Of a stretch of DNA of 39,435 bases, positions 8,346 to 39,167 are shown one piece after another. The notes under the pieces were generated by a model. It made no database searches. It had not been told where the DNA came from and saw nothing but the letters and a program-made list of their open reading frames with translations. The translations under genes were made by a program, and so were the position numbers. The DNA lies in assembly GCA_945787885.1 (NCBI GenBank), contig CALZJF010000019.1:1-39435 (forward strand). Direction: 5' to 3'. This DNA comes from an uncultured Bacteroidales bacterium (GTDB lineage: Bacteria > Bacteroidota > Bacteroidia > Bacteroidales > Bacteroidaceae). Position 1 is the first letter of the stretch; the number at the start of each line of letters is the position of its first letter.

Positions 8346-11237
8346 ATGACACTCACTACACGAACTGCACTCTCCACATTGCTGCTCGCTGCTCTCACCG
8401 CAGGAACAGCACGGGCGGTGCCTGCATATCCTGACAGCATCAGCGTGCTGCAGCCCGACGGCACACGGGTGAGCCTCTGCCTGCGGGGAGATGAATATCT
8501 GCATTGGGCTGTATCGCCTGATGGCTTCACCCTCCTTCAGGACGAAGCGGGATTCTGGACCTTTGCCACGCACGACAACGACGGACGACTCGCCCCTTCT
8601 TCGCTGCGCTACAGCAACTCGTCAGAGCCCGCCCGCCTTCAGGGCATTGCGCCCGGACTCACCTTCTGCCCGGAGCAACTGGCCGAGAAGTACCAGCGTG
8701 CTGCGCTGCCGCAGGTGTGGAAGCAGGCCGACCGCGGCTCTCTGCCACAGCGTGCTGCCGACAAAAGCCTGCAACTGGAGGAATCGTTCCCCACAACGGG
8801 AAAACACAAGTTGCTCGTATTGCTGGTGAACTTCTCCGACACGGAGACCACCTACACGCAGGAGGAAATCAGCGAGATGATGAATGGGGTGGCGTATGGC
8901 GGCAACGGCAGCTTCCGCGACTATTATCTGGCGGAATCCTACGGTCAGCTCGACATTGACGTCACCGTCAGCCGATGGGTGCAACTGCCATATTCCAAAA
9001 GCCTTTACGGCACTGACGGCGCCATCTACATCATTGGCGATGCGCTGGAGGCCTTAGACGAAGAGATTGACCTGACTGAATTTGACAACGACCACGACGG
9101 CATTCTCGACGGCCTCGCCGTCATACATCAGGGTGCCGGACAGGAGACTACGGGCAGCAGCAGTGATATTTGGTCGCACTCCAGCACCATCACGGGTATG
9201 GCGTTCGATGGCATTCAGGTGCGCCGCTATACCATCGAGCCTGAGATATTAGGCACCACGGGCGAACTCTCGCCCATCGGCGTCATCTGCCATGAGTTTG
9301 GCCACAACCTCGGTGCTCCCGACTTCTACGACACGGACTATTCCGTCTCCGGAGGCGAATATTGCGGCACGGGAAAATGGGACTTGCTGGGCTCCGGCGC
9401 ATGGAATGGGAACTACGGCGACTGTCCGGCTCCCATAAATGCCTGGCAGAAAATTCAGATGGGATGGCTCTCCCCCACCCTCCTCGATACTTCGCAGCGC
9501 ATTGATGCCATGCCCTCCATTGCTACGTCTCCCGTAGCTTACCGCATGAACACCACTGTGCCGGGGGAATATTTCATCTTGGAGAATCGTCAGCAAGCCG
9601 ACAATGCCTTCCATGGTGCCACGCCGGGCAGCGGCCTCATCGTCTATCACGTCGATGAAGGCATCATCCGCGATAATATCTATTGGAACACGCTGAACAT
9701 CACCTATCCCCAAGGCATCTACACCGTCTGCGCCGACGCCACGGAAGATGCCGGACAGCGCGTATCGTCATACGGCGACATCAACGTGGCATCAGCCTTA
9801 TTCGGAGGCGAGGGGGACCACCATGCCTTCAGCGATGCCACCACGCCCTCCTCGCGCTCGCGCTCAGGGCGTTATTCCTACAAATCGCTCTCGAACATCG
9901 TCACCGACAAGGAGGGACGCATCAGTTTCGACTTTACGCAAAATGCTGTGCCTGATGCTCCGACGGGTCTGACAGCAAAAACCATTGGCAAAGCCGTCAG
10001 CCTCACATGGGATGCCCCTGCCGCCGACCATGAAGGCTTCGGCGTGCCCGCACGCTATAATATCTACCGTCAGGACGAATGGATTGCCCACACCACGGAA
10101 TGCAGCTTCGTTGATGAAGAGCCTGACGATGGGGCCACCCTCGTCTATCAGGTAGATGCCGAATATGATTCCGGCCTCGTCTCTCCCTACGTCGAAACTG
10201 CCATACGTCTGCCGAAGAACATCATCGCCACCACACAGGCCGTAGTAGCAGAGGGAGACGATGCCCCCGAGGTTAAACTGACATGGACGCTTCCCACCAC
10301 GCTGACGCGCATGAGCGAGGTGGATTTGTATGAGTCTGCCACATACAACTGCGAGAGCATCGAGTATGTCCACCGCTTCACCGCCGACGATTTGGCAGCC
10401 TACCGCGGCTACAAAATCCGCCGTGTGGGCTTCCTGCCCTTCTCCGGACCGCAGGAAGTGAGCATCACCCTCCGCGTTTGGCAGGCAGAGGCCGACGGTT
10501 CGAGCCCTACCATCCTTTCCGAACGCACTATCAAGGAGTTTGGCAAGTACATGTGGAACGACATTCTCCTGACGAAGGCGGTAGAGATTCAGGATCAGCC
10601 GCAACTGTGGATAGGCATTCAGGCAAAAACGCTGAAGGGCGTTGCTGAAATTGCCAACGACCATTCGGGCGAAGGCATGGGCATGGGCAACTATCTGCGC
10701 CTCAACGACGGCGAATGGCATGCCGACGACAAGACTTCCGGCAACTTTGCCCTGCGCTTCACGCTCGCTGCTCCCTCAGCCCCTGATGCTGCGTGCAGCA
10801 TCTTCGCCGACGATGAGCTGACCGACCCCACGCTCGACCTGCTGTTCCCCATCGGCTTCGGCATCTATCGCGACGGCGAACTGCTGGGATATACGGGCAA
10901 CACCTGCTTTATCGACCGTATGCCCGTGGGCGCACAGCCAACGTATGGCATTACGAATGTCTATAAGGGCTACAACGAGTCTGAACCTACCTTGGTCAAG
11001 GTCAGCCTGCAAACGAACGGACTGACGACGGCATCCACCACCGATGTGGCAGACTGCATCCGCCCCTACGCCGGCGGCATCTCCCTGCAGACCGACGGTG
11101 CCTGGGCCATCTACGATGCCGGCGGCCGCCTGATGAATAAAGGTGGCGGCACGAGCGGCAGCAAGATTCCTCTGCCCGACGGCTTCTACATCGTACGCAC
11201 TCCCCACAGCCAGACAAAGGTTTTGCTGACGCGCTAA
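8346..11237 (+). CDS. M6-family secreted metalloprotease with type IX sorting domain
   Basis: A 963-aa protein. The start is ATG 8346, because the alternative TTG at 8337 adds three residues ahead of a normal signal peptide (MTLTTRTALSTLLLAALTAGTARA). Next comes the usual M6 N-terminal region (VPAYPDSISVLQPDGTRV..LRGDEYLHWAVSPDGFTL). The peptidase domain starts near residue 158 (HKLLVLLVNFSDTE). The zinc site is HEFGHNLGAPDFYD, with His316, Glu317 and His320. Two fibronectin type III-like parts (about 535-640 and in the 700s-800s) precede a C-terminal sorting domain (AWAIYDAGGRLMNKG, GFYIVRTPHSQTKVLLTR). Likely a surface or released protease acting on host or dietary protein. All catalytic residues are intact. 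A perfect hairpin terminator follows 23 bases after the stop. Confidence 0.93.
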   Translation: MTLTTRTALSTLLLAALTAGTARAVPAYPDSISVLQPDGTRVSLCLRGDEYLHWAVSPDGFTLLQDEAGFWTFATHDNDGRLAPSSLRYSNSSEPARLQGIAPGLTFCPEQLAEKYQRAALPQVWKQADRGSLPQRAADKSLQLEESFPTTGKHKLLVLLVNFSDTETTYTQEEISEMMNGVAYGGNGSFRDYYLAESYGQLDIDVTVSRWVQLPYSKSLYGTDGAIYIIGDALEALDEEIDLTEFDNDHDGILDGLAVIHQGAGQETTGSSSDIWSHSSTITGMAFDGIQVRRYTIEPEILGTTGELSPIGVICHEFGHNLGAPDFYDTDYSVSGGEYCGTGKWDLLGSGAWNGNYGDCPAPINAWQKIQMGWLSPTLLDTSQRIDAMPSIATSPVAYRMNTTVPGEYFILENRQQADNAFHGATPGSGLIVYHVDEGIIRDNIYWNTLNITYPQGIYTVCADATEDAGQRVSSYGDINVASALFGGEGDHHAFSDATTPSSRSRSGRYSYKSLSNIVTDKEGRISFDFTQNAVPDAPTGLTAKTIGKAVSLTWDAPAADHEGFGVPARYNIYRQDEWIAHTTECSFVDEEPDDGATLVYQVDAEYDSGLVSPYVETAIRLPKNIIATTQAVVAEGDDAPEVKLTWTLPTTLTRMSEVDLYESATYNCESIEYVHRFTADDLAAYRGYKIRRVGFLPFSGPQEVSITLRVWQAEADGSSPTILSERTIKEFGKYMWNDILLTKAVEIQDQPQLWIGIQAKTLKGVAEIANDHSGEGMGMGNYLRLNDGEWHADDKTSGNFALRFTLAAPSAPDAACSIFADDELTDPTLDLLFPIGFGIYRDGELLGYTGNTCFIDRMPVGAQPTYGITNVYKGYNESEPTLVKVSLQTNGLTTASTTDVADCIRPYAGGISLQTDGAWAIYDAGGRLMNKGGGTSGSKIPLPDGFYIVRTPHSQTKVLLTR

Positions 11238-25282: not shown

Positions 25283-26494
25283 ATGGCTTCAACAAAGTTC
25301 AAATTCCGTGCCTCTACCGTTCCAGAACGGCAGGGCACTTTGTTTATTCGGGTGATTCATCAGCGCATGGTGCGGCAAATCAGCACGTCGTACAAACTTT
25401 ATCCATGGGAATGGGATGCCGAGAAGCAGTCGGTGGTAATCTCCCAAGAGTCGTTCCCCTTCCGCTCCCCGTATCTCCACGCCGTGCAGGAGGCGCTGCA
25501 ACGCGATGCTGCTCGCCTGCAACTCATCATCCTTGCGCTTGACCATAGTCGCAAGGCGTATCTGGCAAAGGACGTCGTTGAGCGATTCCTGAAGAAAGAG
25601 CCCTCCGACGACTTTCCGCAATTTGCCGAACGACTGATCAGGCAGAAGAAGGAGGAAGGGCATCAGTCGCTGGCCACGAAGTATCAGGCATCGCTCAACA
25701 GTCTCCATCGGTTTCTCAACGGTCGTCCCCTCCCCTTTGAAGAGGTGAACGCCTCTTTGATGCTCAGCTATGAGGCGTATCTGAAAAACCGGGGGCTTTG
25801 TCCGAATACCACCTCTTTCTATATGCGCAACCTGCAGACCATCTACAATCTGGCAGTGAAGCAAGGACTGACCGCACAGTGGCATCCTTTCGCACCCGTA
25901 TATACAGGCGTTGCCAAGACCGTGAAGCGTGCAGTCAATGCTCAGGAGTTCCAGCAAATCAAGTCGGCAGAACTTTCGCCAAACTCTGCTGCTGCCATGT
26001 CGCGCGACATCTTCCTCTTCAGTTTCTACGCCTGCGGCATGTCGCTGATAGACATCGCCAACCTGAAAAAGTCTGACCTGCAAGGCGAATATCTCACTTA
26101 TTGCCGTCAGAAGACGGGGCAGCAGATACGCATACACTGGGAACCGTGTATGCAGCAATTGGTGAACAAGTATCAAAATGATGATTCTCCGTATCTCTTC
26201 TCCCTCATCGCCCGCCCCGGCACTGACGAAAGACGTCAGTATCAAAGCCGGATACGCCTCATCAACCATCATCTGAAGAAATTGGGCGAGCAGTTGCAGC
26301 TCTCCGTCAAGCTCACTTCTTACGTGGCACGCCATTCTTGGGCAAGCATCGCAAAGAGTCAGAATGTGCCCATAGCTGCCATCAGCGAAGCCATGGGGCA
26401 CACCTCAGAGCGAACCACTCGCATTTATCTGAAGTGGTTCGATAACGCCCTTGTTGACAGTGCCAACCGGAAGGTGCTCAGTATTATCGAATAA
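25283..26494 (+). CDS. Tyrosine recombinase beside a probable invertible promoter
   Basis: A 403-aa integrase/recombinase. Arm-binding domain about 1-90 (FKFRASTVPERQGTLFIRVIH..ISTSYKL), SAM-like core-binding domain about 105-200, catalytic domain about 215-400. Visible catalytic residues are Lys277, Arg350 in SYVARHSWA, His373 in MGHTSERTT and the nucleophile Tyr382 in RIYLKWF. The first arginine of the family is replaced by Cys251 (FYACGMSLID), and the HxxR histidine is Tyr347, as in related Bacteroidetes recombinases. It ends 38 bp before an inverted repeat pair and 492 bp before upxY. The likely job is flipping that segment, though the target could lie elsewhere. The preceding ~1 kb gap suggests its own promoter, but no consensus was found. 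Confidence 0.88.
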   Translation: MASTKFKFRASTVPERQGTLFIRVIHQRMVRQISTSYKLYPWEWDAEKQSVVISQESFPFRSPYLHAVQEALQRDAARLQLIILALDHSRKAYLAKDVVERFLKKEPSDDFPQFAERLIRQKKEEGHQSLATKYQASLNSLHRFLNGRPLPFEEVNASLMLSYEAYLKNRGLCPNTTSFYMRNLQTIYNLAVKQGLTAQWHPFAPVYTGVAKTVKRAVNAQEFQQIKSAELSPNSAAAMSRDIFLFSFYACGMSLIDIANLKKSDLQGEYLTYCRQKTGQQIRIHWEPCMQQLVNKYQNDDSPYLFSLIARPGTDERRQYQSRIRLINHHLKKLGEQLQLSVKLTSYVARHSWASIAKSQNVPIAAISEAMGHTSERTTRIYLKWFDNALVDSANRKVLSIIE

Positions 26495-26532
26495 GAAAGG
26501 GGGAGAAAAAAACAATCGCGTTGTGCGAAACG

Positions 26533-26554
26533 CTTCATCTCTTGGCAAGAGATG
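26533..26554 (+). repeat. Left 22-bp inverted repeat of the invertible segment
   Basis: It carries the 19-bp palindrome CATCTCTTGGCAAGAGATG preceded by CTT. It is repeated exactly, inverted, at 26747-26768. The single central base (G here, C there on the plus strand) makes the pair true inverted rather than direct repeats. Confidence 0.88.
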
Positions 26555-26746
26555 TATCTAATCGCAGGCAAAGGTATAGAAAAGTTTTGAAACAACCTAA
26601 AAATTAACGGATTATCTTTGAGAAACCAGCAAAATATTGATTCGACAGCTGTTGAACTGTTCACTGAATTATGAAGCAAATGTTGAGCGAATCTATCAGA
26701 ACTTCTCCGTTTTGCATTGAAAACGTGCGAGTTGCTCCCTCCGCTC
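26555..26746. promoter_or_regulatory. Probable invertible promoter segment of the polysaccharide locus
   Basis: 192 bp between perfect 22-bp inverted repeats, placed between a recombinase gene and upxY. On the minus strand TACCTTTG (plus 26569-26576), just inside the left repeat, points away from the locus. On the plus strand TATCTTTG (26613-26620) points towards it, but its TTTG is 23 bases upstream rather than 19-21. The strongest-looking position, next to a repeat, would face upxY only after inversion, so the sequenced state may be OFF. No other TAnnTTTG box faces upxY between 26769 and 26986. Confidence 0.75.
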
Positions 26747-26768
26747 CATCTCTTGCCAAGAGATGAAG
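26747..26768 (-). repeat. Right 22-bp inverted repeat of the invertible segment
   Basis: Exact reverse complement of 26533-26554. It lies 218 bp upstream of the upxY start. Confidence 0.88.
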
Positions 26769-26888
26769 ATAATCGGAAACAACAAATGTGTAGTATTCAA
26801 TAAGAAAAAGGATGACGGGTTAAGATGAAATTGCAAGCCAATCGGAAGTTTTGCTCCACGAGCCATCTTTTACACACATTATACGTAA

Positions 26889-26923
26889 CTGCCTGTATCT
26901 CAATCACAAAGAGAAGCAGGCAG
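26889..26923 (+). promoter_or_regulatory. Hairpin in the upxY leader
   Basis: CTGCCTG (26889-26895) pairs with CAGGCAG (26917-26923), with an inner TCTC/GAGA stem. It lies about 65 bases before the upxY ATG, in the untranslated leader where UpxY-type proteins are thought to act. No T-run follows. Its role is inferred. Confidence 0.4.
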
Positions 26924-26986
26924 GAATAAAGGAAGTGCCCGCCAGTTTCTATACCCTCTCCTGTAAAGCCTCTTTTTTCCTTATTC

Positions 26987-27577: not shown

Positions 27578-28816
27578 ATGAAAAAAAGAATATTGTTAGT
27601 GTTCGGAACTCGCCCTGAAGCCATCAAGATGTGTCCGCTGGTGAAGGAATTACAGAAGCGGACAGAAGAGTTCAAAACGATTGTGTGTGTAACTGGTCAG
27701 CATCGTGAAATGCTCGACCAAGTGCTCAAAATTTTTGATGTCAAGCCGGATATTGACTTGAACATCATGAAGCAAGGACAGGATTTGACCGATGTGACTG
27801 TACGTATCCTCAACGGAATGCGTGACGTGCTCAAGGAGTGCAAGCCTGATGTGGTGCTTGTTCATGGCGATACGACCACCTCCACAGCTGCCGCTCTTGC
27901 TGCTTTCTATGCACAGATTCCAGTAGGACACGTGGAGGCAGGACTTCGCACACATAATATATATAGCCCTTGGCCAGAGGAAATGAACCGCCAGATTACT
28001 GGCCGCATCGCCACATACAATTTCTCTCCTACCCCGCTCTCCGAAAAGAACCTTCAGGAAGAGAAAGCGCATGGCAATATCTATGTCACGGGCAATACCG
28101 TCATCGATGCCCTTCACATGGTGGTGGAAAAGTTAAAGAACGACACCGCCCTTGCTGAGGAGCAGAACAAAGTCCTCCTCGAAGCAGGCTATGATGTCTC
28201 AAGACTTGAAACTTTGAACTTGAAACCTGAAACTGCACCAAAGAAGTTGGTGCTGATTACCGGCCATAGAAGAGAGAATTTCGGTAACGGCTTCATCCGC
28301 ATGCTTTCCGCCATGCGTGACCTTTCCATCAAATACCCCAATGTCGATTTCGTCTATCCGATGCACTTGAATCCCAACGTTCGCCGTCCTATACACGAAA
28401 TCTTCACTGATATGGACTCCCTCTCAAAGGGAGAGGGCTGGGGAGAGGCCTCAAATTTCTTCTTCATCGAGCCTCTCCAATACCTCGAATTTGTCCATCT
28501 GATGAGCAAGGCCACCATCGTCCTCACAGATTCGGGCGGCATTCAGGAAGAGGCCCCAGGACTGGGCAAACCCGTTCTCGTCATGCGCGACACAACAGAA
28601 CGCCCAGAAGCTCTCGCAAGCGGTACCGTTCATCTTGTAGGTACGGACTACGAAAAGATTGTAAACGAAGTCAGCACCCTCCTCGATGATGCAGCAGCTT
28701 ATGAAGCCATGAGCAAAGCCGTTAACCCTTATGGTGACGGACAGGCTTGCCGCAGAATTGCTGATGTGCTGGCTGGAAAAGAAGTAGATAAATATTCATA
28801 TAAAACAAACATTTAA
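27578..28816 (+). CDS. wecB: UDP-N-acetylglucosamine 2-epimerase (non-hydrolysing)
   Basis: A 412-aa enzyme converting UDP-GlcNAc to UDP-ManNAc for the polysaccharide repeat unit. Signatures: GTRPEAIKMCPLVKEL (10-25), VGHVEAGLRTHN (116-127), SPWPEEMNRQ, ITGHRRENFG (227-236) and TDSGGIQEEAPGLGKPVLVM. Family members are about 370-385 aa; the extra length is in two places. Residues about 208-221 (SRLETLNLKPETAP) and 279-292 (MDSLSKGEGWGEAS) look like translated dispersed repeats (DNA 28199-28240 and 28415-28453). Both keep the frame and lie in loops away from the motifs above. No UDP-ManNAc dehydrogenase follows in the window, so ManNAc itself may be the building block. Confidence 0.95.
   Translation: MKKRILLVFGTRPEAIKMCPLVKELQKRTEEFKTIVCVTGQHREMLDQVLKIFDVKPDIDLNIMKQGQDLTDVTVRILNGMRDVLKECKPDVVLVHGDTTTSTAAALAAFYAQIPVGHVEAGLRTHNIYSPWPEEMNRQITGRIATYNFSPTPLSEKNLQEEKAHGNIYVTGNTVIDALHMVVEKLKNDTALAEEQNKVLLEAGYDVSRLETLNLKPETAPKKLVLITGHRRENFGNGFIRMLSAMRDLSIKYPNVDFVYPMHLNPNVRRPIHEIFTDMDSLSKGEGWGEASNFFFIEPLQYLEFVHLMSKATIVLTDSGGIQEEAPGLGKPVLVMRDTTERPEALASGTVHLVGTDYEKIVNEVSTLLDDAAAYEAMSKAVNPYGDGQACRRIADVLAGKEVDKYSYKTNI
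28199..28240 (+). repeat. In-frame low-complexity insertion in wecB, first
   Basis: The DNA has the AACTTTGAACTTGAAACCTG pattern, a stuttering of CTTGAAA/CTTTGAA steps common in Bacteroidetes intergenic DNA. It is read here as SRLETLNLKPETAP between the helix ending GYDV and the strand KKLVLITGH. Confidence 0.55.
28415..28453 (+). repeat. In-frame palindromic repeat insertion in wecB, second
   Basis: CCCTCTC pairs with GAGAGGG around AAAGG, followed by CTGGGGAGAGGC. The reverse strand translates to ASPQPSPFERES, a peptide typical of dispersed palindromic repeats in Bacteroidetes genomes. Here it is read as DSLSKGEGWGEAS, between EIFTD and FFFIEPLQY. Confidence 0.7.
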
Positions 28817-28827
28817 GGGATTCAGTT

Positions 28828-29160
28828 ATGGACAATACTATAGAAACTCACAAGAAGGCAATCTTCGCAGCTTTAGAGGCTGTACGTAAACTCAATACGC
28901 CTAAACCCGGTGAATTTGAGTCACTTCCAAGAACAATGGCAAATCATCCTTTGCCTGACATTAGAGCAGCAGTAGATAGTAGCGTAAAACTCGCTGTTCG
29001 TACCCTTAATTACGAATACGTTCCTACTTTATCAAGTAGTGAAGAGATCGTCTTTCTTGATACCACTCCAGTACAGCAGACCTATTTAAATGCTGTTGAT
29101 GTTTTGAAACCTGCTTATGATTATGATAAGGAGCAAGTGGTTTATGTGAAAATTGGATAA
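28828..29160 (+). CDS. Hypothetical protein, 110 aa
   Basis: No family is recognised. The N-terminal half is helical (IETHKKAIFAALEAVRKLN), then PLPDIRAAVDSSVKLAVRTLNY, and the end is mixed (EEIVFLDTTPVQQTYLNAVD, EQVVYVKIG). No signal peptide or membrane segment. It lies 11 bp behind wecB and 36 bp before the HEPN-like gene in the same frame with stop codons between them, so it may pair with that protein. Composition is AT-rich like the following genes. It is not an obvious sugar enzyme, which is odd inside a polysaccharide operon. Confidence 0.6.
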   Translation: MDNTIETHKKAIFAALEAVRKLNTPKPGEFESLPRTMANHPLPDIRAAVDSSVKLAVRTLNYEYVPTLSSSEEIVFLDTTPVQQTYLNAVDVLKPAYDYDKEQVVYVKIG

Positions 29161-29196: not shown

Positions 29197-29634
29197 ATGT
29201 GTATGAAAAGTAAAGGTTATCAAAAGTTTGAAACCTTCAAAATGCAAGCCAACGATGTGTTGAGACTTGCCACAAAAGAGGATGTTATAAAATCGGTTAC
29301 TGATCAAGTCTTCCAGCAATTGGAGTCAGAAAAGAGTACAATAGAGTTGCTCCAGAAAACAAAGAACAAGCTTGGTCTGAATATTGCACAAGAGTTAATT
29401 GATGAATCAATTCCATATCTCAAGTGCCGCCATATCTTTGTACATTCTGATGGCAAGCCTAATGATGAATTTAAGGAAAAATATCCGGATATTAGACTTG
29501 ATTCAAAAGGTAGAATAGCATTGAATATGGAGTTTTTAAACGCAGCTTACAAATCAGTGAATGACTTACTGAAAGCTTATGATGCTGAAATGATCAGCAA
29601 TCATTATATATCTCAAACAGAACTTGTTGGTTAA
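29197..29634 (+). CDS. HEPN-like protein, 145 aa
   Basis: A mostly helical protein. Its centre has KCRHIFVHSDGKPNDEF with an R-x4-H motif (Arg78, His83), the RNase-like signature of HEPN domains, in the usual context of a helix followed by (H)xxG. A second start at 29203 is possible. HEPN proteins often act as RNA-cutting toxins or as parts of defence systems, paired with an antitoxin such as an MNT nucleotidyltransferase. No MNT gene is seen; the 110-aa gene upstream is the only candidate partner. The gap to the flippase gene is 11 bp. The role in this locus is unknown, and the HEPN call rests mainly on one motif. Confidence 0.55.
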   Translation: MCMKSKGYQKFETFKMQANDVLRLATKEDVIKSVTDQVFQQLESEKSTIELLQKTKNKLGLNIAQELIDESIPYLKCRHIFVHSDGKPNDEFKEKYPDIRLDSKGRIALNMEFLNAAYKSVNDLLKAYDAEMISNHYISQTELVG

Positions 29635-29645
29635 CATTCCTATCA

Positions 29646-31196
29646 ATGTCAGATACATCAGCAAATAATAAACGCATAGCGAAGAACACCCTGATGCTCT
29701 ATGTCCGGATGCTCTTCACCATGGCTGTCTCGCTCTTTACGAGTCGAGTCATTTTGAACACCCTTGGAGTAGAAGATTACGGAATACAGAATGTCGTTGG
29801 AGGAGTTGTTGCAATGTTCTCAGTTTTGTCAGGATCCATGTCTTCCTCCATAAGCCGATTCATTACTTTTGAGTTGGGAAGGGGTGAGATTCATAGACTG
29901 AAAACTGTTTTTTCCACAGGGGTAAACATACAATTGGGAATGTCATTGCTGGTCATAGTAGTCGCTGAGGCAGCAGGTGTGTGGTTCTTGAACTGCAAAA
30001 TGAATATTCCTGCAGAACGAATGGTAGCCGCTAATTGGGTATTTCAATGTTCAATATTAACATTTGTGCTTAACCTACTTAGTGTACCCTACAATGCCTC
30101 AATCATCGCTCACGAAAAGATGTCTGCATTTGCATACATTAGCGTGATTGAGGTTACGCTGAAGCTTATCATTGTGTATATGTTGACTGTCTCTCCTTTT
30201 GATCGACTAATAACCTATTCCGTTTTGCTTCTATGCGTTGGAGCATTAATTAGGTTTATATATGGCTATTATTGCAAGAGGCATTTTGAAGAATGCACCT
30301 ATCATTTTGTCTATGATAAGGCAGTATTGAAGTCCATGACAAGTTTCGCAGGTTGGAATTTCTTGGGCAATGGAGCTTATATGCTCAATACTCAAGGAGT
30401 CAACATATTGATGAATATGTATTTTGGAGTAGCTGTTAATGCTGCCCGTGGTGTTGCCACACAAGTGGATGCTGCATTAAAGCAGTTTGTCAACAATTTC
30501 ACGACAGCAGTTAATCCGCAGATAACAAAATCGTATGCGCAAGGCGATCTTGAAAGTATGCACAAACTTGTTTGTAGGAGTGCCAAGTTCTCAGCCTTTC
30601 TGATGATGTTCTTCGCTGTTCCAATAATATTGGAGACAGACACAATCCTCACTTTATGGTTAAAGAATCCTCCTGCTTATGCGTCAATTTTCCTGAAGTG
30701 GATTATCATCTCTTCATTTATGGACACTGTTCTTGCTAACTCGTTGGTGACATCCATGTTTGCCACAGGAAATATCAAGAGATACCAAATAATCGTTACT
30801 ACCGTTGGTTGTCTTGTGTTCCCTCTCAGCTGGTTGGCATTCTATTTGGGATTTGAACCACAAGTAGGCTACATTCTATATTTCATCATATACAGCATCC
30901 TGCTTTTCGTGCGACTATACTTGTTGAGAGATATGGTGAAACTACCCATAATGATGTATGCGCGAGAAGTCCTTTTTAAGGTTTTGCCGACAATGGCAAT
31001 ATGCTTTGCTGTTCCCTCTCTTCTTTTGATTACCATGGGAGAGGGCTTGTTACGTTTTGCTCTCATTGTTGTATCGAGTATGATAGTCACCTCGTTCACA
31101 ACATATAGTATAGGGCTGGATGAAGGAGAGAAAAAATATCTGATTGAACTATCAAAAAAGATACCAATAATACACTCTTTAAAAAATAAGCGATAA
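29646..31196 (+). CDS. Polysaccharide flippase (Wzx-type, MOP superfamily)
   Basis: A 516-aa integral membrane protein with about 12-14 hydrophobic helices. The opening (IAKNTLMLYVRMLFTMAVSL, ILNTLGVEDYGIQNVVGGVV) and SGSMSSSISRFITFELGRGE are typical of Bacteroidales Wzx-like transporters. It moves the lipid-linked repeat unit across the inner membrane for Wzy polymerisation. The gene ends in TAATG, sharing one base with the next start. This is one of the two membrane proteins that define a Wzx/Wzy route here; Wzy is at 36637. Confidence 0.93.
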   Translation: MSDTSANNKRIAKNTLMLYVRMLFTMAVSLFTSRVILNTLGVEDYGIQNVVGGVVAMFSVLSGSMSSSISRFITFELGRGEIHRLKTVFSTGVNIQLGMSLLVIVVAEAAGVWFLNCKMNIPAERMVAANWVFQCSILTFVLNLLSVPYNASIIAHEKMSAFAYISVIEVTLKLIIVYMLTVSPFDRLITYSVLLLCVGALIRFIYGYYCKRHFEECTYHFVYDKAVLKSMTSFAGWNFLGNGAYMLNTQGVNILMNMYFGVAVNAARGVATQVDAALKQFVNNFTTAVNPQITKSYAQGDLESMHKLVCRSAKFSAFLMMFFAVPIILETDTILTLWLKNPPAYASIFLKWIIISSFMDTVLANSLVTSMFATGNIKRYQIIVTTVGCLVFPLSWLAFYLGFEPQVGYILYFIIYSILLFVRLYLLRDMVKLPIMMYAREVLFKVLPTMAICFAVPSLLLITMGEGLLRFALIVVSSMIVTSFTTYSIGLDEGEKKYLIELSKKIPIIHSLKNKR

Positions 31197-33980: not shown

Positions 33981-34538
33981 ATGATTACGAGAGATATTAT
34001 TATCAATGACATTCTGGTACCTTCCTTAAAGCGGCTGTATCAAGTGGATTACGACAACATACGTTTTGGCGTTTCTGAAAGAAACATCTGTGCACGATTG
34101 GCTCATCACGTGGAGAATATCATGAGAGAATATGATAGCTCGCATGATACCAATTATTTTATTGGATACTTTGCCGATGTAGAATACAACAGAATGGGCA
34201 ACGGAGATTTGAAACAGTATGAAAATAGTGAGAAGCGACCTCAATATATGGTCAGCGACCTACTCATACAAAGCCGAGGATATGAGCGTAATTATTTGGC
34301 TGTAGAGATGAAGCGTAAAGGCAACAGCCGTCATGTAAAAGAAGACAAGGAACGTTTAGCCTCAATGGTTTCTTCATCAAATCATGAAACAGAGACTCGT
34401 TGCGTACATGATACTATTGTTGGAGCATTCATTGAATATGGGACAGAAGGCGTAAAGATTGAATTGTTTGAGAATGTAAATGGAGAAGGAAAAGGATCCG
34501 ACAAGTTGATTCTCTCTATTCAAGAACTAATGTTTTAA
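33981..34538 (+). CDS. PD-(D/E)XK nuclease-like protein, 185 aa
   Basis: The N-terminal half carries RFGVSERNICARLAHHVENIM and a DVEYNR segment. The centre shows the nuclease-fold core SDLLIQSRG..NYLAVEMKRKGN with Asp93, Glu109 and Lys111, the D-ExK pattern. A C-terminal strand set (IVGAFIEYGTEGVKIELFEN) follows. Similar stand-alone proteins of this size occur widely next to unrelated genes; their job is unknown, perhaps defence-related. A 174-bp gap precedes it and the pyruvyl transferase starts 10 bp behind it, so it is part of the transcript. It is not a sugar enzyme. Confidence 0.65.
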   Translation: MITRDIIINDILVPSLKRLYQVDYDNIRFGVSERNICARLAHHVENIMREYDSSHDTNYFIGYFADVEYNRMGNGDLKQYENSEKRPQYMVSDLLIQSRGYERNYLAVEMKRKGNSRHVKEDKERLASMVSSSNHETETRCVHDTIVGAFIEYGTEGVKIELFENVNGEGKGSDKLILSIQELMF

Positions 34539-34548
34539 AAAAATTATA

Positions 34549-35718
34549 ATGAAAATCGGAATACTTACACAACCACTTCATGCGAACTATGGAGGTCTGT
34601 TGCAGAACTATGCTTTGCAGCAGGTGCTCTTGCGAGCAGGACATGAGGTGGAGACCATTGACTGGTTTTCCCCATCCGTCAATTCTTTGCATGAAAGATT
34701 ATATAGAATCAAAAGGTATGTTCTATCTATTCTTAATCCCGAGAAATATCCGAAGCTAAGGTATCAGATTACAGAAGAAGAAAGGAAGGTAATCCAGCGT
34801 AATACCAACCACTTCATTTCAACGTATATCAATCATACCGAAAAGGTGCGCTCCAAAGAAGGGTTCATTGCGAAGGCCAAGGAAGGAAACTACGATATAT
34901 ATGTCGTTGGTAGTGACCAGTGTTGGCGTCCCAGATACAATGCGTTTCTTTCTTCAATGTTCTTAGATTTTGCAAAGGAAGAAAATGCGAAGCGCATTGC
35001 CTATGCTGCCAGTTTTGGTACCGATCAATGGGAATTTACACAAGAAATGACCTCAATATGCGCGCCTCTTGCTCAAAAGTTCGATTTTGTGTCCGTTCGA
35101 GAAGATTCAGGAGTAAAGCTTTGCAAAGAGCACCTTGGAGTAAATGCCGTTCATGTGCTCGACCCTACCTTATTGCTTACGAAAGAAGACTACATCCGTC
35201 TCATAGAAGCAGAAAAGGAACCCAAGGCCCAAGGCACTCTCTTCAACTATATCCTTGATCCGGATGCAGCAAAATCGGCATTTATCAATAAAATAGAAAA
35301 AGAGAAGGGACTTACAACTTTCCAAGTTCTGCCAAAGTGCCAAGAGGAAACCCGAACAAAGCAAGACGTAAAGAATCGCATTGAAGATTGCGTGTTCCCA
35401 GGGGTTACTTCATGGCTTCGAGCCTTCATGGATGCTGAAATGACCATTGTGGATAGTTTCCATGGTATGGTCTTCTCCATCATTTTCAATAAAACTTTTT
35501 GGGTAATAGGGAATGAAAGCAGAGGAATGAGCCGCTTTACATCGCTCTTGAAAGTCTTTCATCTTGAAGAACGTCTTATTGATGCCGAAAATCTTGATAA
35601 GGTCAATTTCAATAAGCTGATAGATTGGGATGCTGTTAATACTTTATTGGAAACCAAGCGGAACGAATGCATATCACTATTGTTGAACGAAATAAAGCGA
35701 TATAATGTCAAAAGTTAG
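34549..35718 (+). CDS. Polysaccharide pyruvyl transferase family protein
   Basis: A 389-aa protein of the pyruvyl-transferase family (PF04230-like). The start is typical (MKIGILTQPLHANYGGLLQNYALQ), followed by VVGSDQCWRPRYN, KRIAYAASFGT, FVSVREDSG, HVLDPTLLL and VDSFHGMVFSIIF. Members place a pyruvate ketal on sugars from phosphoenolpyruvate, giving acidic polysaccharides; some have other roles. The gene overlaps the next one by 14 bp. Confidence 0.9.
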   Translation: MKIGILTQPLHANYGGLLQNYALQQVLLRAGHEVETIDWFSPSVNSLHERLYRIKRYVLSILNPEKYPKLRYQITEEERKVIQRNTNHFISTYINHTEKVRSKEGFIAKAKEGNYDIYVVGSDQCWRPRYNAFLSSMFLDFAKEENAKRIAYAASFGTDQWEFTQEMTSICAPLAQKFDFVSVREDSGVKLCKEHLGVNAVHVLDPTLLLTKEDYIRLIEAEKEPKAQGTLFNYILDPDAAKSAFINKIEKEKGLTTFQVLPKCQEETRTKQDVKNRIEDCVFPGVTSWLRAFMDAEMTIVDSFHGMVFSIIFNKTFWVIGNESRGMSRFTSLLKVFHLEERLIDAENLDKVNFNKLIDWDAVNTLLETKRNECISLLLNEIKRYNVKS

Positions 35719-36640
35719 TATAATAGTACCAGTATATAAAGTAGAACAATACCTTGCACGCTGCATTGACAGTATTTTAGCACAAACTTATAAGGATTGG
35801 GAACTGCTCCTAATTGATGATGGTTCTCCTGATCGAAGTGGCTTTATCTGCGATGAATATGCTACAAAAGATCCTCGTATTCGAGTATTCCATAAAGAAA
35901 ATGGAGGTGTAAGTATGGCTCGTAACTATGCGCTGGATCATCTTTGTGGTGATTATGTTACTTTTGTTGATTCTGACGACTGGATAGACAAAGAATGCCT
36001 GGAGATGTGTGTAAAGGAGTTTAAGGGGAGCGACTTTGATATGCTTCAATTTGGCTATAGAGATATTTCCTACGATGGGAAAGTGTTAAGAGAAAAGACG
36101 CTCGATTCGCAAACCGCAGACTTGAAGACTTATCTAAAATCCTCTTTCCTCGTAACTGTTTGGGGGACGATTTTTCGAACATCAATAATAAAAGGGAATA
36201 ACATTAGATTTGATACAAGTCTTAAATTGGCAGAAGACCAACTGTTCATTATGCAATACATGGTTGTTGCAAATTCTTTCAAATCAGTAAACAATGTGTA
36301 TTACAACTATTTTAATAATAGTGATGGAGCTGTAAAAAATTCCAAATCAGAGGATATGATCAAATCACTCGGTACTCTTGACAATTTTGTAAGAAGATAT
36401 CCCATATTTGAAATTGTTTGTTTTCCTTTATTTGATAATTTTTTGGCTCTTATATTCCTAAATGGAGATATAGGTACTTCAAAGTATAAATCATTGTATA
36501 AAAGATTCTATAAGAATCAGAAACCAAACTATATTTTGAAGAAGTATTCTAAATTGTCGGCCATTTCATATACTTTAGCATACTTTGTCTGTTACTTAGC
36601 ATATCCTCTACGTTATAAATTAATAGGTAAATTCAGATGA
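35705..36640 (+). CDS. Glycosyltransferase family 2
   Basis: A 311-aa GT-A fold enzyme. VSIIVPVYKVEQYLARCIDSI at the N-terminus, IDDGSPD at 37-43 and the metal-binding DSD at 89-91 (FVDSDDW). It adds one sugar of the repeat unit at the inner face of the membrane; donor and acceptor are unknown. A basic C-terminus (CYLAYPLRYKLIGKFR) could touch the membrane. It overlaps the previous gene by 14 bp and the next by 4 bp. Confidence 0.93.
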   Translation: MSKVSIIVPVYKVEQYLARCIDSILAQTYKDWELLLIDDGSPDRSGFICDEYATKDPRIRVFHKENGGVSMARNYALDHLCGDYVTFVDSDDWIDKECLEMCVKEFKGSDFDMLQFGYRDISYDGKVLREKTLDSQTADLKTYLKSSFLVTVWGTIFRTSIIKGNNIRFDTSLKLAEDQLFIMQYMVVANSFKSVNNVYYNYFNNSDGAVKNSKSEDMIKSLGTLDNFVRRYPIFEIVCFPLFDNFLALIFLNGDIGTSKYKSLYKRFYKNQKPNYILKKYSKLSAISYTLAYFVCYLAYPLRYKLIGKFR

Positions 36641-37992
36641 AAGGTTCTACTAGTTACATCATAATTAATTTTATCATAGTTCTTCTGACATATCTTCTTC
36701 AATCGGAAGTCGTTAGTATAGCTTTATTAAGCTTAATACAGATAGTCTATGTATCTCTACATATTTATAGAATGGCTCCAATAAAGTTGTCTATGGGGTT
36801 ATTATTCCTCATCATATTGTTTTTGTTCCATTCAGGTCATAGTATTTTATATCTTCAAGGTGCAAAAATTACTGATTTTTGGAATATGACTTTCTGTACA
36901 AGTTCTGAATATGCAATTGCCCAGATATATACTCAACTTTCCATCCTGTTTATATCCTTAGGATATATGTATATATATGTTGATTATCAAAGATTTACTG
37001 CATTTGGTGTAGGTCAAATTAAGCGTCTTCCTTTTTTATTGTTCTTTGTATTTACTGTTCCCATCTTCGTTATTTCTAAACTGATGCAGATCGATGTGGC
37101 AGAATCAGAGGGTTATCTGGCTACATATGCACTAGCCAACCATCCGTTGTTTCATTATGGTTATGATTTTATAGAGATTTGTCCATCGTTGGCTGCAATT
37201 TTGTGTGTGTTATATAAAGATAAACCAACAGTTCGGTTTACATTAGCCGCTTTCATTATTGTATTTGGTACGTACTCAATGATTTCTGGTCATAGAATTT
37301 CTGCCCTTATTCAGATAATCACATTTGTAATAGTATACTATGGCGCTATTTCAGATATAACAAAGAAGACTATCGTAGTGTTTCTTTTTGCGGGATTGTT
37401 CTATGTGACTTTTTTGCCGATGGTCTCATATTTACGTACATATGGACAGGTTGACATTGAACATCTGACAGAGCTGTTTCAAGATCAAAGGAGTGGTAGC
37501 CAAGAATCAGAAAATTCTTTCTTAGTGGAATTTGGAGGCACTGTTATTTCATTGATATATCCTATGAAATATGCAGGAGAAACGTATAATTACATGTATG
37601 GAGCAACCTATTTACTTGAACCGATAAATATACTTCCTAAAAAACCAGAATTCATTGTTAAAAATGAATTGTATCAACATGCGAAAGTATATGTAGATAA
37701 TCTACCCAATAGGGTTAGACGGGGGTTGGGTGGTTCTGTATTAGGAGAACTATACTCCAACTTTTCTTGGTTTGGTTGTTTGTTTGCTTTTTTGATAGGC
37801 ATATTTCTAAAGTATATAGATATGGCGATTGTCACTATAAAAAGAAACAGGTGCTTGTCTTATTGGACTATAATGCTAATACTATGGATCCCTCATACCA
37901 TAATGTGGATCCGTGGTTATTTTCAAGGCTATATATCTAGTATGATGATTATAGTGTATGTAATTTGGAGATTGTCACTTAGAAGAAAATGA
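36637..37992 (+). CDS. Oligosaccharide repeat-unit polymerase (Wzy-type)
   Basis: A 451-aa membrane protein with about 10-12 hydrophobic helices and a large outer loop (about 265-370) holding RTYGQVDIEHLTELF, NSFLVEFGGTVISLIYPMKY and RRGLGGSVLGELYSNFSW. This layout is typical of Wzy polymerases, which join repeat units on the outer face of the inner membrane. Such proteins have little sequence conservation, so the call relies on topology and on its place beside flippase and transferases. It is among the most AT-rich genes here: I count 16 G/C in the 60 bases 36661-36720. Confidence 0.85.
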   Translation: MKGSTSYIIINFIIVLLTYLLQSEVVSIALLSLIQIVYVSLHIYRMAPIKLSMGLLFLIILFLFHSGHSILYLQGAKITDFWNMTFCTSSEYAIAQIYTQLSILFISLGYMYIYVDYQRFTAFGVGQIKRLPFLLFFVFTVPIFVISKLMQIDVAESEGYLATYALANHPLFHYGYDFIEICPSLAAILCVLYKDKPTVRFTLAAFIIVFGTYSMISGHRISALIQIITFVIVYYGAISDITKKTIVVFLFAGLFYVTFLPMVSYLRTYGQVDIEHLTELFQDQRSGSQESENSFLVEFGGTVISLIYPMKYAGETYNYMYGATYLLEPINILPKKPEFIVKNELYQHAKVYVDNLPNRVRRGLGGSVLGELYSNFSWFGCLFAFLIGIFLKYIDMAIVTIKRNRCLSYWTIMLILWIPHTIMWIRGYFQGYISSMMIIVYVIWRLSLRRK

Positions 37993-39167
37993 TAATGAAA
38001 AAGATATTATTTGTCATCCCAAGCTCCCAAATAGGCGGGGTTACTACATCTTTGCAGAGTATAATAGATAATCTTAATAATGATGATTATGATATTCGAA
38101 TATTTGCAATTACCCACCACCAAGGGTGTGAAATAACTTATAGGAATATACTACTCCCTGAAGATAAGCTACTGTCTTCATATTGGTGTATCTATAAGCG
38201 TGAACCTTACGGAAGAAGGATTCAATTTTTGGGGATGAAAATTCTCAAACAATTAGCTTTGCGATTTGGTTGGCCTCTTGAAGATTGGCTCTTTGTCAGA
38301 GCTATGAAACGATTAGAGTCTAACTTCGATTTCGACACAATCATTGCTTTTTCAGAAGGGGCAACAACTAAATTTGTCTCGTATACTACATATCCAAAGA
38401 AGATAGCGTGGATACATAGCAATTATAATGTATCATTTCCTGATTATAGCTTTGACGAGAGTACAATATATAATAAATTCGACCGTATCGTCAGTGTTAG
38501 TATGTACACTAATGGTTGTTTCATTTCTCGCTATTCCTCATTAGAAAAGAAGTGTGCCGTCATATATAATTTATTAGACGTAAAAAGGATAATACAACTC
38601 TCAAAAGAGGAGATTGATGATAGCATGTTTGCCAACTCGAAAGATAAATTCGTAATCTTATCTGTTGGAAGAGTCTGTCAAGTTAAGCAATATTCTAAAA
38701 TTCCTGAAATCGTTTCTAAGGTGTTAATTGAACATCCCAACATTAAGTGGTATATCATAGGACCATTAGACTCAGATCCAGTAGAGGTTTCACTGCTTAA
38801 AGAAAACATTGAGAAATATAGCGTTAAGGATAATGTGATCCTATTAGGCGGAAAGAAAAATCCATATCCTTATTTTCTGCAAGCAAATCTATTGGTTTCT
38901 ACATCTTTTTCTGAGGCATGCCCAATGATCTTTAACGAAGCAAAAATATTAGGGCTCCCAATTGTTTCTACAGAATTCGGATCTGCTTATGAGTTTATTA
39001 ATGATGGGGTAGATGGAGTTATAACATCTTTAGATAATATGCCCGTAGTGATCTCTAAAATGATAAATGACGTAGAGTTTTATAAACAAATCAAAGAGTC
39101 TATAAGACCAGATTGTATAATGTCAAACAAAGATATTATCAAACAAATATCAAATCTTTTGGAATGA
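37989..39167 (+). CDS. Glycosyltransferase family 4
   Basis: A 392-aa GT-B fold enzyme. N-terminal MKKILFVIPSSQIGGVTTSL, then KFVILSVGRVCQVKQYSKIPE and the nucleotide-sugar site SFSEACPMIFNEAKILGLPI with the E-x7-E pattern of the family. ATG 37989 overlaps the Wzy stop by 4 bp; an in-frame ATG two codons later gives MKKILF, the more usual opening. It ends overlapping the next start by 4 bp. Confidence 0.93.
   Translation: MIMKKILFVIPSSQIGGVTTSLQSIIDNLNNDDYDIRIFAITHHQGCEITYRNILLPEDKLLSSYWCIYKREPYGRRIQFLGMKILKQLALRFGWPLEDWLFVRAMKRLESNFDFDTIIAFSEGATTKFVSYTTYPKKIAWIHSNYNVSFPDYSFDESTIYNKFDRIVSVSMYTNGCFISRYSSLEKKCAVIYNLLDVKRIIQLSKEEIDDSMFANSKDKFVILSVGRVCQVKQYSKIPEIVSKVLIEHPNIKWYIIGPLDSDPVEVSLLKENIEKYSVKDNVILLGGKKNPYPYFLQANLLVSTSFSEACPMIFNEAKILGLPIVSTEFGSAYEFINDGVDGVITSLDNMPVVISKMINDVEFYKQIKESIRPDCIMSNKDIIKQISNLLE

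Follow-up and report, generated by a model that had tools for sequence, protein, structure and literature searches.

A putative invertible promoter switch next to a tyrosine recombinase gene and upstream of an upxY-like polysaccharide locus in a Prevotella-like bacterium

In Bacteroides, the polysaccharide locus that encodes a UpxY protein and is read from an invertible promoter is a classical arrangement (PMC12118408, PMC12632263), and the first of these papers describes UpxY-like proteins as preventing termination in the untranslated region. In Bacteroides fragilis, invertible promoters lie before UpxY polysaccharide loci, as at the locus described here, and at least thirteen regions are served by Mpi, a serine recombinase, whereas our candidate switch is adjoined by a tyrosine recombinase gene (PMC12632263, PMC5903667). 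Bacteroides xylanisolvens and Parabacteroides distasonis share a further likeness with it, since palindromic inverted repeats enclose the promoter, a tyrosine-type invertase or integrase comes before, and UpxY/NusG and capsule genes come after (PMC12118408). The repeats reported there, GTTACTTCTTAGGTAACGGA (segments of 289-290 bp) and GCTACTYRGNRAGTAGC (314-345 bp), differ from the TCTCTT/AAGAGA arms and 192-bp segment in the window, by which we mean the whole 39,435-nt stretch of DNA that was analysed. Bacteroides intestinalis (183-186 bp) and B. uniformis (174 bp) also have invertible regions before UpxY-type genes (PMC12118408, PMC12691588), the B. uniformis switch having support from reads and RT-qPCR (PMC12691588). 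Their repeats, GTTCGTTTAA and CGTCCATTAAACGAACGTTTAAAAAAC, are unlike the TCTCTT-N3-AAGAGA pattern of the window.

The IntCTnDOT subgroup comprises tyrosine recombinases of Bacteroidetes, some of which may lack the first catalytic arginine; the members named in the available text belong to mobile elements, whereas the recombinase of the window lies at a promoter switch (PMC8138268). In a survey of the invertons of a gut community, UpxY genes and tyrosine-type invertases are among the neighbours of invertons, and several repeat motifs are reported (PMC11892184). Among the papers listed by our literature searches, none describes a TCTCTT/AAGAGA inversion site, although the motifs in inverton surveys could include it; in the accessible part of one candidate paper the core letters occur in primers only, with no description of a site. 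The main inverton survey is reportedly that of Jiang et al. 2019, whose repeat motifs could include TCTCTT-N3-AAGAGA. The kind of switch, a capsule phase switch with a tyrosine recombinase, is already known, and the locus of the window appears to operate likewise, with a different site.

A sequence-only reading of this DNA had proposed that perfect 22-bp inverted repeats with a palindrome enclose 192 bp carrying -7 boxes on both strands, that this segment lies between a tyrosine recombinase gene and upxY, and that no other promoter box faces upxY. We found that this anatomy is exact (Table 1). The two 22-nt repeats are 100% complementary, and each is built on a 19-nt 9-1-9 palindrome with an odd centre (left, CATCTCTTGGCAAGAGATG; right, its reverse complement, with centre GCC) whose core follows the pattern TCTCTT-N3-AAGAGA and not the GTTAC/GTAAC (or GCTAC/GTAGC) arms. 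When up to three mismatches were allowed, the palindrome motif had two copies in the window, compared with a mean of 0.01 in 100 dinucleotide shuffles, none of which reached two; the remaining genome has one extra copy, with one mismatch, at the end of contig C77. The repeats enclose a candidate promoter whose box is identified by motif only. The segment is downstream of the recombinase gene and upstream of the upxY-like gene, whose product matches the UpxY-family profile NF033644 over its full length (E 1.5e-28; 99.8 bits, just under the cut-off of 100) and has no Pfam match at 0.001. The two boxes inside the segment, TACCTTTG and TATCTTTG, both follow the pattern TAnnTTTG. On either side of the switch, the searched intervals 26495-26532 and 26769-26986 contain no TAnnTTTG box.

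Table 1. Features of the candidate switch and the adjoining polysaccharide locus (window coordinates)
Feature	Position	Strand	Remarks
Tyrosine recombinase, 403 aa, candidate invertase	25283..26494	+	PF13102 and PF00589 above cut-off; association of family with site
Left inverted repeat	26533..26554	.	Core site TCTCTTGGCAAGAGA at 26538-26552
Putative invertible segment, 192 bp	26555..26746	.	L017 and L018 have the orientation opposite to the window's
-7 box TACCTTTG	26569..26576	-	Toward recombinase gene, probable OFF state; TACCTTTG in 6/7 aligned loci
TATCTTTG box	26613..26620	+	Toward upxY; probably not the main promoter
Right inverted repeat	26747..26768	.	Core site TCTCTTGCCAAGAGA at 26749-26763
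Leader of upxY, not part of the segment	26769..26986	+	Aligned in 7 loci; no TAnnTTTG facing upxY
Conserved hairpin in the leader, where UpxY may act	26889..26923	+	2/11 consensus pairs with two-sided change
upxY-like transcription antiterminator, 186 aa	26987..27547	+	NF033644; PHROG 6386, E 4.8e-05
UDP-N-acetylglucosamine 2-epimerase	27578..28816	+	PF02350
Flippase-like protein, presumably Wzx type	29646..31196	+	Weak PF01554 (MatE), 22.8 bits against cut-off 24.9
Polysaccharide pyruvyl transferase	34549..35718	+	PF04230
Glycosyltransferase family 2	35705..36640	+	PF00535
Wzy polymerase	36637..37992	+	PF14296
Glycosyltransferase group 1	37989..39167	+	PF00534

Both orientations of the segment occur among close relatives. 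When named genomes were scanned for the recombinase, two loci emerged, L016 (Prevotella sp. MAG SUG272) and L017 (Prevotellaceae MAG), in which the recombinase gene, switch and upxY follow the window's layout, and genus searches added L018 (genome G052) and L019 (G029). In all five clade loci the recombinase is directly beside the switch, and they split 3:2, with the window, L016 and L019 in the presumed OFF arrangement and L017 and L018 in the ON arrangement. The flanks are concordant throughout, while the segments of L017 and L018 are inverted relative to the window and those of L016 and L019 are not. Between L016 and L017, whose recombinases are 95% identical, the segment aligned over 197 bp at 86% when inverted, again between concordant flanks, and blastn gave no match in the direct sense. 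The opposite orientation, which the sequence-only reading had proposed to look for in other strains, is therefore present in two other genomes. Together with the conservation of the box, these arrangements support, on sequence grounds, an invertible promoter switch of the polysaccharide locus. Comparison of segments across the loci returned 14 inverted and 29 same-orientation rows, or 13 and 25 distinct pairs (some of them paralogues) once self and nested rows were removed. A further natural flipped pair with this type of site is formed by L148 and L168 (G291 and G331), closely similar loci from two species whose segments match in inverted sense over 158 bp at 96%.

Three other loci carry parts or variants of the arrangement. 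Contig C77 of the window's own genome has a window-like recombinase tail (92% over 127 bp) followed by an L016-like segment (95% over 116 bp) in the ON orientation. This fragment (L004, genome G000, 9244-9474) consists of the tail, one site and a partial ON segment, joined to a frame that by eye resembles the end of a dipeptidyl peptidase. Because this is another allele, joined here to a peptidase-like frame, the join is likely a product of mixed-strain assembly, and as a sign of both states within one genome it is suggestive only. In L044 (G012, 1180-1280), where upxY is 82% identical to that of the window, the promoter points toward upxY and a decayed site, CATCTCTTATTAAGGGATG, remains; the sequence examined has no recombinase match and no left repeat, and the locus apparently derives from the switch by locking in the ON state. 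In L045 (G046), both sites are present and the promoter side is the one nearer upxY, but the sequence examined contains no recombinase match.

We compared the boxes over seven aligned loci. The leftward box TACCTTTG, located 16 nt inside one core site, points at upxY in the flipped relatives as well as in the seemingly frozen-ON locus, and faces away from it in the window; only L045 deviates at this place, with CATCTTTG. At another fixed place, the rightward box is retained as TAnnTTTG in four loci, namely the window, L016, L045 and L018 (in the version TATATTTG), and is lost in L017, L019 and L044. The sequence-only reading had seen in the leftward box a hint of the OFF state that the rightward box left open. 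Since TACCTTTG is kept in six of the seven loci and the rightward box in four, OFF is the likelier assignment, and the sequenced state is probably OFF; some doubt remains, because the retained rightward box may act as a weak second promoter and allow a certain level of upxY expression in the orientation sequenced. An alternative is that both orientations express upxY, one from TACCTTTG and the other from TATCTTTG, so that the switch would set the level or timing of expression and not turn it on and off. The presence of TATCTTTG facing upxY in the window, and of its counterparts at the same place elsewhere, would fit such a two-level arrangement, but the loss of the box from three loci argues against it, as does the finding that opposite-pointing boxes are not enriched across the site family (6 of 79 pairs, compared with 9.2 expected from single-base shuffles). 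We therefore regard it as unlikely.

The site defines a wider family. When 399 genomes of the bacterial family were searched for two TCTCTT-N3-AAGAGA sites 150-210 apart, 133 pairs were found in 48 genomes from 14 of the 30 sampled genera, while the backward-read pattern, used as a control in the same genomes, gave 0 pairs. The flanking sequence suggests a longer site, roughly GTnnATCTCTTnnnAAGAGATnnAC, and many other recombinases of the family adjoin inverted repeats with similar arms. A scripted comparison covered 97 pairs, those at the loci examined, and the free centre trinucleotide was matched in inverted orientation in 97/97 and in direct orientation in none. These pairs comprise 91 unique sequences, of which 87 were kept after deduplication, corresponding to 85 loci (the window and four relatives, 24 from the genome search and 56 from multi-switch genomes) and two nested third sites. 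From their frequencies, two centres would agree at random with a probability of about 0.1. Shared ancestry means that the loci are not independent, but the 87 pairs carry 26 different centres, so the matching does not stem from one event. Furthermore, 80 of the 87 pairs have an outward -7 box no more than 45 nt from one end and none at the other (one pair has boxes at both ends, six at neither), and inward boxes within the same distance were found at 0/174 ends. For 71 pairs the box is less than or equal to 20 nt away, and in these its distance from the site is 9-16 nt.

Some members of the family are more complex. A third copy of the site is found near one segment end in L031, L091, L095, L135, L136, L142 and L161, which could give rise to several alternative inversion products. 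In G057, a related switch (L022, 3336-4991) is followed by a 551-aa protein with, by eye, a NusG/UpxY-like start, and behind it by genes that look, also by eye, flippase-like and pyruvyl-transferase-like. In a viral collection, searched for spacings of 150-180 only, six contigs of phage or host DNA carry such pairs, all centre-matched; three of them show no difference along 8 kb or more and share one orientation. These viral-collection contigs, and the fact that the neighbouring gene is an integrase by family, would be consistent with the repeats being integration sites of a mobile element, or else a chance pair of hairpins, instead of an inversion switch. However, the conserved place before upxY in the five clade loci, the inverted segments in relatives and the constant box position make this explanation extremely improbable.

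The neighbouring recombinase belongs to a family that is associated with this site. Recombinase matches at E<=1e-85 were found in 41 of the 48 genomes with a site pair compared with 63 of the 351 without (Fisher p 2e-20, uncorrected for shared ancestry and with at most four recombinase candidates scored per genome), leaving seven pair-bearing genomes with no match at this threshold. Neighbourhoods were analysed for 39 recombinase genes, lower-scoring ones (L006, L007, L034-L040, L042, L043) and duplicates being left out. Of 36 genes, 28 were followed by a matched pair at a distance of up to 900 bp, after exclusion of L025, L028 and L079, which have fewer than 500 bases downstream; with L064-L069, a single identical switch, counted once, the figure is 23 of 31. 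Upstream, the corresponding control gave 0/39. This control was used in place of a reversed motif, which matched 12/36 and was uninformative; we attribute this to the overlap of the motif with a shifted copy of itself. The sequence-only reading had named the adjacent recombinase as the natural candidate for the invertase; the tie between family and site type supports this candidate, and we infer that it acts on these repeats.

In the six multi-switch genomes, only 6 of 56 loci have a recombinase relative within the roughly 8 kb examined, which suggests that enzymes probably act at a distance there, and action in trans is probably common in the family. The same could apply to the window if its switch were inverted by a recombinase encoded elsewhere, with the neighbour acting on other sites or on none. 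L045, with a switch and no recombinase in the sequence examined, provides a precedent, and the window's genome has two further recombinase relatives at 35-37% identity. On the other hand, every one of the five clade loci has the recombinase adjoining the switch, most recombinase genes in the neighbourhood analysis have a matched pair just downstream, and the search of the 399 genomes for site pairs found no second one with this pattern and spacing in the window's genome; we consider an enzyme encoded elsewhere improbable for this locus.

The PF00589 catalytic domain of the neighbouring recombinase scores 43.5 bits (cut-off 27.1), and K277, R350, H373 and Y382 are invariant in 29/29 aligned recombinases. 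In an alignment to the XerC-like recombinase 4a8e, the first catalytic Arg corresponds to S254 and the first His to Y347, both invariant in the 29. Position 251 (window numbering), three residues before the first-Arg position, is Arg in 59 of 67 sequences, Cys in seven and Met in one. The cysteine marks the window clade, that is, the window twice, L016, L017 and its copy L060, L018 and L019, which read TCGMS or ACGMS in this region. The segment could be a locked relic in this genome in which inversion has ceased; the cysteine would fit this, and the decayed, apparently frozen L044 is an example of such a fate among relatives. The repeats, however, are perfect, the recombinase frame is open, and the other Cys251 members occur in both orientations, so that a relic is very unlikely. 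That switches of the clade occur either way round also suggests that activity is not abolished by the cysteine.

The matched centres raised the question of whether the trinucleotide is an address label, read by base pairing during strand exchange, that alone sets the direction of an otherwise symmetrical site, so that sites would invert and not delete, and that keeps coexisting switches apart. We regard this as possible but somewhat doubtful. If true, switches with the same arms and related recombinases could coexist in one genome without recombining with each other, and loci sharing one label, such as AGT in G117 and G134, could be shuffled together. The diversity of centres within genomes does not support an address code. 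Same-centre pairs within multi-switch genomes were neither significantly rarer nor commoner than in shuffled data (5/134 against a null mean of 6.0 in genus g22, 2/13 against 0.7 in g20 and 76/155 against 74.1 in g14, with nested third sites uncounted, one of the seven pairs of G406 included and G399, which has one pair, left out), and these counts give no support to selection for distinct labels. In G117 (L154-L162) and G134, the centre is AGT in eight of the nine listed switches each. By eye, the promoters of these AGT switches are very similar, as if copied, and they may recombine mutually.

Collectively, we consider it very probable that the neighbouring recombinase inverts a 192-bp segment with one main promoter and so turns upxY on and off. 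Under this mechanism, the adjacent tyrosine recombinase would bind the palindromic arms of both TCTCTT-N3-AAGAGA sites, and strand exchange across the matched centre would turn the segment round. Since the arms are symmetrical, the direction of a site resides in its centre and flanks alone; where the centres match in inverted orientation, inversion of the segment is the expected outcome, and deletion is not. In the ON state the box would face right and, because it would end 16 nt from the right core site, RNA would start near the right repeat edge and continue through the constant leader into UpxY and the polysaccharide genes. In the presumed OFF state, the one sequenced, the promoter would face the recombinase gene and run antisense into its 3' end. 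Observations that speak against this reading include the Cys251 of the window clade where most sequences have Arg; the pair-bearing genomes that have no recombinase match at the threshold used, with the scarcity of neighbours in multi-switch loci; and the rightward box still facing upxY in four aligned loci.

The leader lies outside the segment, and the same RNA leader would therefore follow the promoter whenever it is ON. Two local hairpins with modest covariation are predicted in it across the seven loci, while the whole leader does not fold significantly more stably than shuffled sequences (z -0.70). UpxY may act on its own operon at these hairpins. The genes behind it encode recognizable polysaccharide functions, interspersed with three open frames, at 28828-29160, 29197-29634 and 33981-34538, that match nothing in Pfam or NCBIfam at 0.001. 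As the contig stops at 39435, the locus may extend further.

The two named relatives are a Prevotella sp. MAG and a Prevotellaceae MAG, which is why we call the organism Prevotella-like, and the findings would tie one of its polysaccharide loci to reversible switching. Such switching is reported to affect phage encounters in related bacteria (PMC12118408, PMC12691588). The always-matched centre makes the requirement for overlap homology testable in natural sites, and the short definition of the site, together with the recombinase family tied to it, finds such switches in nearly half of the genera sampled.
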